Source of the DNA: Candidatus Saccharicenans sp.
GTDB lineage: Bacteria; Acidobacteriota; Aminicenantia; Aminicenantales; Saccharicenantaceae
Reading direction: 5' to 3'
Assembly (NCBI GenBank): GCA_030017715.1
Contig: JASEIU010000003.1
Span: forward strand, 62,001-126,000
DNA: 64,000 nt
This document shows, in pieces, positions 18,386 to 21,982 of this stretch. Positions within the stretch are counted from its first letter, which is position 1. Each line of letters starts with the position of its first letter. Both the position numbers and the translations under genes were made by a program. Below the pieces are notes generated by a model, which saw only the letters and a program-made list of their open reading frames with translations, was not told the DNA's origin and did not search any database.

Positions 18386-18412
18386 AAAAAAAAAGGCTTC
18401 CCGCCGGAAGCC
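18386..18412 (-). terminator. Intrinsic terminator after the ECF operon
   Basis: Perfect 7-base stem GGCTTCC/GGAAGCC (18395-18401 and 18406-18412) with a CGCC loop. On the minus strand it is followed by nine U residues (A-run 18386-18394). It lies just after the stop of the last operon gene at 18441. Confidence 0.85.
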
Positions 18413-18440
18413 CCTGTTGAGAATCACTGCCGGTCGCTGA

Positions 18441-18824
18441 TTATTCCAGCCAGACTTTCACGGTTTCGTCTTCTTCGTTAACCTCAATGATGGCCAGCGG
18501 GCCGACTTTCTTGAGCTCGGCCAGCAATTCCGGCAGGTTCAGGATGCAGCCGTCACGCCCCAGCCTGACTTCTTTGTTGTCGGCGCAGCGGGCGAAGATC
18601 TCCACCAGAGAAATGGGCATGGTGATCTTGACTTTTTCCTTTCCGGTTCTGGTGTCCGTCACCAGCACCTTGAACCATTTGACCTCTTTGACCGGCTCAA
18701 CTTTCGAGGTCTCCTGGACGGCTTTCTTAATCACCTGATAATCATCCCTGTCGCCGGCCGCCAGATTGGAGGCCAGCAACAGCAGACTCAAGACAAGGGT
18801 TGTGACCAAAATAACCTTATTCAT
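18441..18824 (-). CDS. Small exported protein with the W-L/I-E C-terminal domain
   Basis: 127 residues. A signal peptide occupies about 1-23 (hydrophobic LVTTLVLSLLLL, cleavage near LAA/GD), so the protein is probably periplasmic. After a charged linker, residues 51-127 form a domain that begins FKVLVTDTRTGKEKVKITMP and ends ETVKVWLE at the stop codon. Two other proteins of the same operon end in a related domain (LKIRVYE to IEIWIE; LKMLVYD to VLLWLE). I recall a similar domain at the ends of LiaX/YvlB-like envelope-stress proteins; this is from memory and needs a profile search. It is the last gene of the sigma-factor operon, followed by a terminator. Function unknown; a role in sensing or buffering envelope stress is inference. 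Confidence 0.8.
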   Translation of the reverse strand: MNKVILVTTLVLSLLLLASNLAAGDRDDYQVIKKAVQETSKVEPVKEVKWFKVLVTDTRTGKEKVKITMPISLVEIFARCADNKEVRLGRDGCILNLPELLAELKKVGPLAIIEVNEEDETVKVWLE

Positions 18825-18852
18825 CCTGTTTCTCCTTCTTCCTGATTTTTAT

Positions 18853-19710
18853 CTATTCAATCCAGATTTCGATGATGTTGCCATCTTCTTCAATCCGGAC
18901 CAGTTTCTCTTTGGCTCTGGCCAGGTCGGAAATGATGCGGTTCAGGTCATAGCCTTTTTCTTTCATTCTGGCCTTCTCTTCTTCCGGAATGGCCTGAATG
19001 GCCAGGTCAGCCAGAGCTAACGGCAGATTTATGGAGATGCCGGGAGACTTCTTTCCCTTTTCATAAACCCTGATTTTCAGCAGCCGCAATCCTTCCCGCC
19101 CCGACCGGTCGGGAATATCCTTCAGAGCCTGGGGCGAAATTCGGAGGACGGCAATCCTGGCCCGGTCGACCAGTTCCTGGTCTTTTTCCGTTTCGATCAA
19201 TCTGGTCAGCACCGGCAGGGCCCGGGCGGCCAGGGACTTATCCTTGAGGTAGCTCATCTTCATGGCCGCGTAATACCTGATAACCCGGTTGGGGCTGGAC
19301 AGTCTGTCCTGGAATAACCGACCGTACTCCTTCTGGCCCTGGTTGAAAAGCTTGAAGGCCAGGTCGATGATGGCTATCTCGGCCTCTTCCAGCAGCCCCT
19401 GCGGCCGGTCCGGCCTGTTAAGAAAGGCCTGGAAAGAGTCAAGGGCCTCTTTTTCTTTTCCGCTCTGCTCAGCCTGGCACTTTCCGAGATAAAAGAGCGC
19501 CTGGGCATAATATCCGCTCTGCGGGTGGTTTTTGACCAGGCTGGCCAGTTTTTCCTCGGCTTCCGGCCATTTTTTGTCAAAAATCAGAAGCTTGGCTTCC
19601 TGCAGCAGCTTTTCGTCTTCGCCGCTCCGGGTCTGGGCCAGAACCGGGCTCGCCATCCCCACAGTCAGAAAAACGATTATGATAAAGGTTGTTGTAGCTT
19701 TTATCTTCAC
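18853..19710 (-). CDS. Exported TPR/HEAT-like protein with the W-L/I-E C-terminal domain
   Basis: 285 residues starting at GTG, with GAGG six bases upstream. Signal peptide about 1-26 (FIIIVFLTVGMASPVLA/QT). Residues about 30-100 are TPR-like (EAKLLIFDKKWPEAEEKL, then SGYYAQALFYLGKC), and about 100-205 are helical and HEAT-like (RYYAAMKMSYLKDK, RARIAVLRISPQAL). Residues about 212-285 carry the domain shared within the operon, from LLKIRVYEKGKKSPGISINL to IEIWIE at the stop. The start sits two bases from the anti-sigma stop, implying coupling. Known of the repeats: protein-protein scaffolds. Inferred: a periplasmic partner of the anti-sigma factor's outer domain. Confidence 0.8.
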   Translation of the reverse strand: MKIKATTTFIIIVFLTVGMASPVLAQTRSGEDEKLLQEAKLLIFDKKWPEAEEKLASLVKNHPQSGYYAQALFYLGKCQAEQSGKEKEALDSFQAFLNRPDRPQGLLEEAEIAIIDLAFKLFNQGQKEYGRLFQDRLSSPNRVIRYYAAMKMSYLKDKSLAARALPVLTRLIETEKDQELVDRARIAVLRISPQALKDIPDRSGREGLRLLKIRVYEKGKKSPGISINLPLALADLAIQAIPEEEKARMKEKGYDLNRIISDLARAKEKLVRIEEDGNIIEIWIE

Positions 19711-19711
19711 C

Positions 19712-20503
19712 TTAAACCTCGCCTTGCTGGAGTTCTTTTTTTACCAGATTGATTTTGAGCAGCAGTTGCTTGTCTTCAACCATTTCCCGGATCTTATCCA
19801 GTTCTCTGGCTGAAAGCTCCGGACTCAACTGGCTGAGCTCCAGAAACAGCAGTTCAATCTGGTCGCATATGGCCCGGGCCTTCATCAACCGCCAGTCGTC
19901 CAGCTGGTCGTTTAGATATTTTTTTTCGGTTAACAGTTGCTGGATCCTCTCCTGGCGGACCAGACTCGATTCCCCGGACCTCCCGTTCTGAAGAAGGTCG
20001 AGCAGAAGATACTGACTGCGTTCGAGGTAATCTATGGTTTCCCTCCTGGCCAGGGCCACGTCCACTCGCTCCATCATGTCCGCCGGCATCGCAATGGCCG
20101 CCTCCTGACGGTCGGCCACCTGGGCCGGCTTTTGAGGTCTGAAGACCAGATAGGTCATGGTTCCCCCCAGCAGCAATCCGAGAAACAGTCCGGCGGCCAC
20201 CGGTTGCCATTTCCACAGCCTCTGCCGGGAAGAGGTTTCAGGCTGAGTTTTTCGTTCCTTCTGTTCCCATATTTTTTCCGTTATTTCCCCGGGCAACGAT
20301 TCCCAGTCGACCGTGCTCATGACCCGGTTCAGCTCTTCCTTAAAGCCCCGGGTCAGAGCCACGAGCTTTCTGGTTTCTTCCAGCCCGGTACGGCAGACCG
20401 GACAGGTTTCAAGATGAGCGGCCATTTCCTCGGTTCGCTCCGGAGAAAGCTGTCCGCTTAAAAAAGCCGGCCAGTCCTTTTTATATTGTCTGCAGACTTT
20501 CAC
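19712..20503 (-). CDS. Zinc-finger (ZAS) anti-sigma factor, single-pass membrane
   Basis: Binds and holds the neighbouring sigma factor at the inner membrane until a signal releases it. The cytoplasmic part has the ZAS motif H30-x3-C34-x2-C37 (AAHLETCPVC), with C4 as a possible extra ligand. One membrane segment lies at about 99-121 (PVAAGLFLGLLLGGTMTYLVF). The outer part (about 125-263) is long and helical with coiled-coil character (RQERIQQLLTEKKYLNDQLD), large for this family. The start is a GTG overlapping the sigma stop (GTGA), preceded by GGGAGG. Overlapping sigma/anti-sigma pairs are the standard arrangement. Confidence 0.88.
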   Translation of the reverse strand: MKVCRQYKKDWPAFLSGQLSPERTEEMAAHLETCPVCRTGLEETRKLVALTRGFKEELNRVMSTVDWESLPGEITEKIWEQKERKTQPETSSRQRLWKWQPVAAGLFLGLLLGGTMTYLVFRPQKPAQVADRQEAAIAMPADMMERVDVALARRETIDYLERSQYLLLDLLQNGRSGESSLVRQERIQQLLTEKKYLNDQLDDWRLMKARAICDQIELLFLELSQLSPELSARELDKIREMVEDKQLLLKINLVKKELQQGEV

Positions 20504-21078
20504 CGCCCACCTCCCAGGCTGGGGACCAGAGTTTTTCTCAGGTTCTGGACAGCCTTGAAATGAAGCGACTTGACCGTGCCCACGGCTATTCCCAGGCGCT
20601 CGGCTACTTCCTCATACTTCAGCTCATCAAAATGATGAAGGATAAACACCAGCCGCTGTTTCTCCGGCAGGGCCAGAACCGCCCTGTGGATAAGCTCTCC
20701 GGTTTGAAACCGGTCCGGGTCTTCCCGGTCAGCGGCCAGGTCGGCCCGGTCCAGGTCCAGGTCGTCCAGGCTGTCCTTTTTCCTGGTCTTGTTCCGCCGG
20801 AGAAAATCGATGCTCAGGTTACGGGCAATCTGCATCAACCAGGCCTGGAAGCTTTCTCCGGCCCGGTAGCTCTGAATCTTTTCATACAGCCGGAGGAAAA
20901 CCTCCTGGACCAGGTCCAGGGCATCTTCTCTGTCCCTGACCATGGAGTAGGCCAGGACGAAGACCTTTTGCTGGTAAGCGGCTACGATTTTCATGAAAGC
21001 TTCCCTGTCACCTTTTTTAATCCGCTCCACCAGAAATTCGACCTGCGGTTCAATTGTCCGGCCATTTTTCTGTTCCAT
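20500..21078 (-). CDS. ECF (group 4) RNA polymerase sigma factor
   Basis: 192 residues with sigma region 2 (about 15-95: DREAFMKIVAAYQQKVFVLAY, DALDLVQEVFLRLYE, FQAWLMQIARNLSIDFLRR) and region 4 (about 130-182: LPEKQRLVFILHHFDELKYE, then VAERLGIAVGTVKSLHFKAV). Regions 1.1 and 3 are missing, as expected for extracytoplasmic-function sigma factors. It directs polymerase to a small regulon, often including its own operon. Its stop overlaps the anti-sigma GTG. I could not find a confident self-promoter upstream; a TATAAT at 21644-21639 on this strand lies before the first gene of the unit. Confidence 0.95.
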   Translation of the reverse strand: MEQKNGRTIEPQVEFLVERIKKGDREAFMKIVAAYQQKVFVLAYSMVRDREDALDLVQEVFLRLYEKIQSYRAGESFQAWLMQIARNLSIDFLRRNKTRKKDSLDDLDLDRADLAADREDPDRFQTGELIHRAVLALPEKQRLVFILHHFDELKYEEVAERLGIAVGTVKSLHFKAVQNLRKTLVPSLGGGR

Positions 21079-21124
21079 TCTTTGACTCTGTCCCCGGCGA
21101 CGCCCTCTCGTCCATAGTATATGC

Positions 21125-21532
21125 CTATTCCAGCCATAAAAGCACCTTTTCCCGGTCGGTCAGAACTTCGGCCAGCAATCCCCGCGGCATTTCGAAAACC
21201 GCCCGGTTGAAACCGTCATGGTCGAAATCAAAATCCGGACCATGAGAACAAGCTGCGCTTGCGGATTCATAACTTAAACCCTTTCTGACCAGCCAGAGAG
21301 GCAATGAAATCCTCAGAAGCTGTCCGTCATCGGGGTCGTAGACCAGCATTTTCAAGCGGTGAGGCCGCAATGAAGTTGAGGAAGAAAGGGATAATTTTAG
21401 AATCCTCTGCCTGGCCTTCTGCAGTTCCAGTTCTGCCTCCCGGTCTGTCTTTTCCACCGCCACTACCAGGCAGGAAGACAGGGTCAGCAGGACGGCAATA
21501 ATTATCAGCAGGGTTTTCGGTTCAACCGGCAT
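21125..21532 (-). CDS. Putative lipoprotein with the W-L/I-E C-terminal domain
   Basis: 135 residues from ATG 21532, which has AGGAG six bases upstream; an in-frame ATG at 21559 would add nine residues without a better site. The N-terminus is hydrophobic with a possible lipobox LTLSSC (C21), so it may be a lipoprotein or stay membrane-anchored. A short helical stretch (31-50) is followed by residues about 60-135, starting LKMLVYDPDDGQLLRISLP and ending KVLLWLE at the stop. This matches the C-terminal domains of the two downstream exported proteins. It is the first gene of the unit, 46 bases before the sigma gene. Function unknown. Confidence 0.75.
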   Translation of the reverse strand: MPVEPKTLLIIIAVLLTLSSCLVVAVEKTDREAELELQKARQRILKLSLSSSTSLRPHRLKMLVYDPDDGQLLRISLPLWLVRKGLSYESASAACSHGPDFDFDHDGFNRAVFEMPRGLLAEVLTDREKVLLWLE

Positions 21533-21679
21533 CCTCTTCTCCTCATTTCTGGTCTTCACCAGAAACTACGGAGAACAAGCGGCCAGGGTTTACCGGTTGA
21601 CCGATTTTCGTATCGGAGCAGACTCCACCCTTTCATAGATTATAGGGGTAATTAAAGTCCGCTCCGGCCAGGAAATATA

Positions 21680-21982
21680 TCAGAATTTGCGGAAATTTCT
21701 TCTCTGCTGCGGCCCGGAACCGAAACGGCGTTCGCCGCCGCTTCTTTTCTCGCCTTTCGGCCTGGCGTCATTAACAATGATTTTGCGGCCGTCGAACTCG
21801 GTTCCGTTGAGTTTGTCCTTTGCTTCCTGGGCGCCCTCTTCGGTTGACATTTCCACAAAGCCAAAGCCCCGACCCTGCAGGATGTTAACTGAGGTAACTT
21901 CTCCGTACTGAGAAAATAATTCCTTCAGTCCGTCCTCGGTGGTCCTGTAGTTTAAGTTACCCACATAAAGCTTTAAAGACAT
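21680..21982 (-). CDS. RRM-domain RNA-binding protein
   Basis: 100 residues. One RNA-recognition motif spans residues 1-78, with RNP2 KLYVGNLN and RNP1 GRGFGFVEM. A short Arg/Gly-rich tail (GGERRFGSGPQQRRNFRKF) follows. Such bacterial RRM proteins resemble cyanobacterial cold-inducible Rbp proteins and bind RNA in the cytoplasm. GAGGAGG lies just before the ATG. It is flanked by short non-coding regions on both sides and seems to be its own unit. Confidence 0.93.
   Translation of the reverse strand: MSLKLYVGNLNYRTTEDGLKELFSQYGEVTSVNILQGRGFGFVEMSTEEGAQEAKDKLNGTEFDGRKIIVNDARPKGEKRSGGERRFGSGPQQRRNFRKF

Follow-up and report, generated by a model that had tools for sequence, protein, structure and literature searches.

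An uncatalogued C-terminal domain shared by three putatively exported proteins of an ECF sigma factor operon in Aminicenantia

Introduction

To our knowledge, work on envelope-stress signaling by extracytoplasmic function (ECF) sigma factors has centered on Proteobacteria, Firmicutes, and Actinobacteria. In Escherichia coli, the relevant genes are arranged in the order rpoE-rseA-rseB-rseC with an rseD leader. Here, we describe an ECF sigma factor operon from Candidatus Saccharicenans sp., a member of the class Aminicenantia (Acidobacteriota) with a genome assembly of 2.89 Mb that is 92.6% complete. The operon lies in a 64,000-nucleotide stretch of contig JASEIU010000003.1 (positions 62,001 to 126,000), hereafter the window, and consists of five minus-strand genes running from 21532 to 18441: a lipoprotein (LP), an ECF sigma factor, a zf-HC2 anti-sigma factor, a TPR/HEAT protein, and a small protein (SM). 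The LP, TPR/HEAT, and SM proteins have signal-like N-termini, by which they are predicted to be exported, and all three close in a common ending of approximately 78 residues, which we call the WLE domain.

The locus shares its core with known modules made of an ECF sigma factor and a class I (zinc) anti-sigma factor. Specifically, the sigma factor comprises regions 2 and 4 only, the adjacent gene encodes a membrane protein with a zf-HC2 zinc domain, and an AAC/CGT ECF-like site lies upstream. It departs from those modules in carrying an uncatalogued terminal domain on as many as three proteins, the exported TPR/HEAT protein among them. In layout, the operon is also similar to rpoE-rseABC, given that both contain a sigma factor, an anti-sigma factor, a periplasmic protein, and a further protein, along with a small frame ahead of sigma and targets (predicted ones in the present case) in the envelope. 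The likeness is limited to layout, however, and the exported domains differ; the RseA and RseB/MucB families of Pfam were not found in any of the five operon proteins up to an E value of 1.

Results

Class-wide profile comparisons show that the C-termini of LP, the TPR/HEAT protein, and SM are one homologous domain. In the window, this domain occupies 21361-21128 in LP (135 residues with a lipobox-like LSSC; 21125..21532), 19086-18856 in the TPR/HEAT protein (285 residues; 18853..19710), and 18683-18444 in SM (127 residues; 18441..18824), all on the minus strand. Profiles were built from 27 LP, 71 TPR, and 70 SM rows, where the TPR set contains one row from a broken gene, present only as a fragment, and includes two rows from locus L066, one of them lacking the domain. 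In hhalign, the LP-SM pair scored 80.0 (probability 99%), TPR-SM 79.3 (99%), and LP-TPR 39.6 (93%), compared to maxima of 17.8, 18.1, and 16.6, respectively, among 60 column shuffles of each, and every pair aligned across 74-76 columns. A search with the SM sequence (P0003) alone picked up, in several genomes, the C-terminus encoded by the neighboring TPR gene (best E 9.9e-6); in one genome, it also matched the operon's first gene (E 3.4e-5). Furthermore, the reading frame terminates exactly at W-x-[EDKQ] in 27 of 27 LP, 69 of 70 SM, and 62 of 71 TPR rows. Read from the sequence, the domain appears to follow the pattern strand-strand-helix-helix-strand-strand.

An alternative is that the three endings resemble one another by chance or through convergence on a short W-x-E terminus. 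Single-sequence comparisons are weak, as are shallow ones, with profiles from close orthologues only giving pairwise local probabilities of 9-65%. Against this stand the deep-profile scores of 40-80 versus no more than 18 after shuffling, and also the fact that one profile (alignment A2), containing 41 members from all three groups, recovers the three genes together as well as many genes outside the class. We consider chance or convergence so improbable that it can be set aside. Alignment A2 holds 41 of 44 rows, having left out the broken-gene fragment of L066, one row of L086, and one row of L073; in a search of the window genome at E ≤1, it found three places, all of them in this operon.

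The WLE domain is, by these searches, uncatalogued in Pfam and NCBIfam. The 41-member alignment matched no family in either database, with hits confined to single members (best E 0.0057 and 0.033), and LP on its own matched none up to E 1. A profile search of the PDB returned no credible relative; the best match (E 0.0079) was a designed barrel aligned over short repeated pieces. Literature searches covering open-licence PubMed Central returned no account of the operon or the domain.

The operon is widespread among relatives. Matches to SM were found in 97 of 142 genomes of the class, including 47 of the 64 that are ≥90% complete and ≤5% contaminated. We compiled 71 loci from the class, 60 chosen by SM, 10 by the TPR gene, and the window itself. 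The full five-gene order was present in 26, and the order sigma, anti-sigma, TPR, SM in 41; of the others, one had the first four genes at a contig end, one had its TPR gene in two frames, and two were cut before sigma. Most loci were selected by SM, so how often it occurs among them cannot be taken as independent evidence. Stronger is the order sigma, anti-sigma, TPR, which all 69 class loci that include a sigma gene preserve (69 of 69), these having been chosen by SM or the TPR gene. Across the phylum, the A2 profile matched 160 of 396 genomes at E ≤1e-3, of which 35 belong to the class. Among 40 loci examined outside the class, 17 contained sigma, anti-sigma, and a domain-bearing TPR gene, some with LP or SM as well, and four were partial operons at a contig or fetch end. 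Another 15 encoded exported-looking proteins with tandem copies of the domain, often in two neighboring genes (with two domains per protein in L148, L149, L150, L160, L162, L163, L164, and others), and four had a lone single-domain gene. Three loci (L134, L139, and L158) had no sigma or anti-sigma gene of this type within the 4.5-8.3 kb examined; in two of them, L134 and L139, SM-like single-domain genes sit beside putative genes for signal peptidase I and for cytochrome c biogenesis.

Copies of the domain also group by their position in the operon. In a tree of 98 rows, which is of low resolution given its 78 columns, the LP, TPR, SM, tandem, and SHOCT copies required 7 label changes compared to a mean of 54 when labels were shuffled. 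Two rows, L132_0 and L147_0, were labeled LP by rule and are TPR by length and placement. Since copies from different classes group as LP, TPR, or SM according to their place in the operon, the triplication appears to be ancient and to have been retained. The earlier note on this DNA, which had been made from the sequence alone, proposed that three exported proteins end at their stop codons in a related domain, and that this could be checked by comparing their profiles and surveying the neighborhoods in related genomes. Both checks bore it out: the endings proved homologous, and the domain accompanies sigma and anti-sigma in loci from the class as well as from other Acidobacteriota.

The sigma factor (192 residues; 20500..21078, minus strand) matched Sigma70_r2 (E 7.8e-20), Sigma70_r4_2 (E 5.3e-17), and TIGR02937 (sigma70-ECF), all above cut-off. 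Its gene shares 4 bases with that of the anti-sigma factor (263 residues; 19712..20503, minus strand), which in turn is separated by a 1-base gap from the TPR gene. The anti-sigma factor has a zf-HC2 domain (E 1.1e-8; 35.4 bits versus a cut-off of 22.2) and, as read from its sequence, a membrane segment. The motif of the zinc anti-sigma domain is Hx3Cx2C, according to PMC7406223, and the corresponding H30, C34, and C37 were invariant in all 17 rows of alignment A4, which represents 17 of 26 rows available. Beyond the membrane segment is an outer region of approximately 140 residues (about residues 125-263). Judged by the consensus, it is more conserved than the bulk of the cytoplasmic part, the zinc motif excepted. 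When an anti-sigma profile was run against 119 genomes of the phylum, there were five matches in the window genome, and among the four listed, only the one from this operon covers the outer region.

Evidence for export varies among the three proteins. A crude rule identified a strongly hydrophobic N-terminal stretch in 22 of 27 LP, 63 of 70 SM, and 47 of 71 TPR sequences. Thus, the earlier suggestion that all three carry export signals finds good support in LP and SM, and less uniform support in the TPR protein. The latter matched TPR_6 above cut-off (E 1.4e-7) and HEAT_2 under its cut-off (E 5e-4), and the TPR part has a sub-cut-off resemblance to YbgF/CpoB and BamD. The operon closes with a terminator-like hairpin of 10 pairs followed by a T run (18392..18415, minus strand); such sites numbered 14 across the region versus 8.4 expected in shuffles. 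Together with the frame coordinates and family matches, the hairpin (18415-18392) agrees with the prior description of five same-strand genes in this order ending in a terminator. A gene that reads as a putative RRM RNA-binding protein adjoins the operon upstream (window 21680-21982), as it also does at L012:2877-3218.

The upstream regions, when aligned, reveal a promoter-like site, GTRAACC-N16-CGTW. In the window, the predicted site reads GTAAACC-N16-CGTA (21567..21593, minus strand; G000:C12:83567-83593) and lies 34 bases 5' of the lipoprotein start. In the 900 bp upstream of sigma, we counted the pattern GT[AG]AAC[CT]N15-17CGT[AT], using the same loci on which the motif had been defined. 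Of 69 class loci, 48 contained it, and both strands of the 1.227 Mb that these loci span gave 49 matches in total. The genus, represented by 19 genomes, yielded 97 matches compared to 39 for the reversed pattern. We inspected 20 of the site regions from the genus, mostly for recurring sites, and counted a region with two sites once. Seven had the site before a long DUF5916-type protein (Pfam E 8e-49 in the one protein tested), which may be an outer-membrane barrel, and an eighth such region was cut by a contig end. In another seven, the site preceded a lipoprotein of 335-337 residues, of which the one searched matched no Pfam family; in two, a 65-residue membrane protein; and in one, a CBM9-like protein. 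Two lacked a clear target. The small membrane protein (65-66 residues) likewise stands after the site in one additional genome of this genus, making three, and in three genomes from another genus; across the two genera, these loci are L206, L228, L229, L258, L259, and L261. Sites in the window genome lie before a DUF5916-type protein (G000:C12:254097), a 337-residue lipoprotein whose orthologue matched no Pfam family (G000:C10:817927), and a CBM9-like exported protein (G000:C15:50203). A weak match of a CBM9-like target to Diphtheria_C (17.1 bits versus a cut-off of 25) was read as chance. Because the site precedes both the operon and the genes for the DUF5916-type protein, the lipoprotein, and the 65-residue protein, the pattern suggests that they form a self-regulated envelope regulon.

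The WLE domain is not confined to ECF operons. PF22746 (SHOCT-like) was above cut-off in 6 of 247 genomes of the phylum, and in four of these (G011, G088, G135, and G208), the protein had a WLE-like C-terminal half, as did a protein from an Embleya plasmid with 35% identity to that of G011. This half, represented by five sequences, scored 35.2 against the WLE profile in hhalign, compared to a maximum of 19.6 in 200 shuffles and 11.4 when reversed. With HMMER, two of the four proteins were clear (E 2.6e-5 and 7.7e-5) and the others gave 0.02 and 0.06; nothing convincing for a WLE-type C-terminus was found in the remaining two PF22746 genomes. The homologous stretch of approximately 80-90 residues ends in IFCE, VFCE, or IYCE, not WLE. 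Given their SHOCT-like N-terminus and the absence of a signal peptide by reading, these proteins are probably cytoplasmic. They differ in this start from the exported proteins of the operon, since no SHOCT-like N-terminus was found in LP, the TPR protein, or SM. The SHOCT-like profile had no match over cut-off in the window genome, with four weak sub-cut-off matches in other genomes, and viral contigs searched with the SHOCT-like alignment yielded no match. Outside Acidobacteriota, the spread of the domain rests on one SHOCT-like match from an Actinomycetota plasmid.

The earlier note had likened the C-terminal domain to that of LiaX/YvlB-type stress proteins. We take YvlB to be CAB15517.1. 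PMC11237479 reports SHOCT-like domains positioned N-terminally in Toastrack proteins, CAB15517.1 among them, and mentions contexts with a linked sigma factor. The C-terminal domain of LiaX is PF13349 (Toastrack) as described in PMC10269926, and PF13349 was not among the Pfam matches of the operon proteins or of the 41 domain members. By that description, LiaX ends in a different domain, so the proposed membership of the WLE C-terminus in the LiaX/YvlB group was rejected. What stood of the comparison is narrower: by profile score, the tie is with some SHOCT-like proteins, not with LiaX's own C-terminus. LiaX/YvlB proteins have in common with the present system a role in envelope stress (a probable one in our case), and with the WLE-bearing SHOCT-like proteins their N-terminus, whereas LiaX differs in its C-terminus and in belonging to the two-component Lia system rather than to an ECF sigma factor with WLE proteins.

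Short remnants of the domain occur as well. Among 40 of 42 sigma-first loci, namely those with at least 200 nt upstream, a short frame before sigma ends in ILIWLE (two loci), ILIWLQ, or MLLWLE in four. The expectation for such tail-only frames was 0.02 per shuffle round, and the reverse strand had 0, with the caveat that the pattern was chosen after some cases were known. The frames are L012:3377-3493 and those in the pre-sigma regions of L040, L050, and L058. That of L012 encodes a 38-residue lipoprotein with a signal, lipobox, tail, and little more. Such remnants may be recent internal deletions, or the tail may have a use of its own.

Discussion

Our results reveal a domain homology, a gene order, and common promoter-like sites; export of the three proteins, an outer complex, its contact with the anti-sigma factor, the direction of control, and the signal are what we infer. 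We propose that the operon encodes an ECF sigma module that regulates itself and serves the cell envelope, most likely its outer membrane, in which the WLE-domain proteins and the outer region of the anti-sigma factor form a sensing or feedback complex. In such a module, the anti-sigma factor would keep sigma at the inner membrane, while its outer region would assemble outside the membrane with the TPR/HEAT protein, the lipid-anchored LP, and SM. Damage to the envelope would alter or titrate this complex, leading the anti-sigma factor to release sigma, either by proteolysis or by a change in shape. Freed sigma would then transcribe its own operon along with genes for the DUF5916 protein, the lipoprotein, and the small membrane protein, and newly made WLE-domain proteins would help reset the system. 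The earlier note had likewise placed the shared domain in an outer-face sensor or binding layer that would act through the anti-sigma factor; of that reading, the common domain and its retention beside the sigma/anti-sigma pair are supported, and the action through the anti-sigma factor is a hypothesis. In favor of our proposal are the homology of the three domains, their confinement in the window genome to this operon, the gene order in the class, the clustering of copies by position, the promoter-like sites, and the finding that, among the four anti-sigma places listed for the window genome, only that of this operon covers the outer region. We regard this proposal as evenly balanced between being right and wrong.

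A number of observations weigh against it. The promoter motif was counted in the very loci from which it was derived; beyond the class, only 4 of 19 sigma frames carry the site, in a total of 5 matches over 0.578 Mb. In the tree, the main SM group excludes four SM copies that come from other classes. A WLE-type domain is also present in SHOCT-like proteins that, by reading, have no signal peptide. The 15 tandem-domain loci had no sigma or anti-sigma gene of this type in the 4.5-8.3 kb examined, so the domain also works elsewhere. In addition, among ten further anti-sigma places picked from the 119-genome listing and inspected, five (L243, L244, L245, L249, and L252) are sigma-anti-sigma-HEAT operons having the same outer region without the WLE domain, and two (L248 and L250) have sigma and anti-sigma only, with neither HEAT nor WLE. 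The other three, from one family (L246, L247, and L251), count in favor of the proposal: each has a tandem-WLE gene pair divergent from sigma and anti-sigma, and L246 and L251 carry HEAT-type genes as well. From these ten places, the WLE domain is fused to or found beside such systems in several arrangements and is not obligatory.

Several of these observations would be expected if WLE proteins were effectors, i.e., periplasmic chaperones or scaffolds that protect or assemble envelope proteins and reside in the operon because sigma induces them. Their genes lie behind the promoter-like site of sigma just as other envelope genes do, the tandem copies occur without this sigma or anti-sigma nearby, the same type of anti-sigma factor occurs in operons without the domain, and the SM-like genes of L134 and L139 sit on different contigs from the sigma operons of the same genomes. 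Less easily explained are the close and apparently old tie to one type of anti-sigma factor, the confinement of all copies in the window genome to this operon, and the unbroken sigma, anti-sigma, TPR order in the class. An effector role is a possible account, which we entertain tentatively. A related argument can be made that the TPR/HEAT protein alone contacts the anti-sigma factor, with the WLE domain as an add-on for oligomerization or substrate binding and LP and SM as partners or decoys. HEAT-type proteins trail this anti-sigma factor even where WLE is missing (L243-L245, L249, and L252), and many loci lack LP or have it in reduced form, with 41 of 71 reading sigma, anti-sigma, TPR, SM. 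The retention of SM in the examined loci points the other way, but weakly, since most were chosen by SM. On balance, we think that contact through the TPR/HEAT protein alone is rather unlikely.

A further idea builds on the sensing complex that we favor. In the sigma-E pathway, C-terminal peptides of unfolded outer-membrane proteins act as the signal. By analogy, the W-x-E C-terminal strand might itself be a signal element, with a free tail docking on the outer region of the anti-sigma factor or on a protease. The lipid-anchored, TPR-bound, and soluble carriers could then each report the same signal from a different location. The tail-only frames before sigma, including the 38-residue lipoprotein of L012, would fit such a use. 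We offer this as speculation that is probably wrong.

Our study defines a module that is widely conserved in Acidobacteriota and comes with a predicted promoter and regulon. Furthermore, a domain for which Pfam and NCBIfam have no model links extracytoplasmic ECF signaling to SHOCT-like proteins. If the WLE domain binds the anti-sigma factor, it would represent a new class of ECF regulator. If it does not, it would still constitute a new family of envelope proteins with a testable role.

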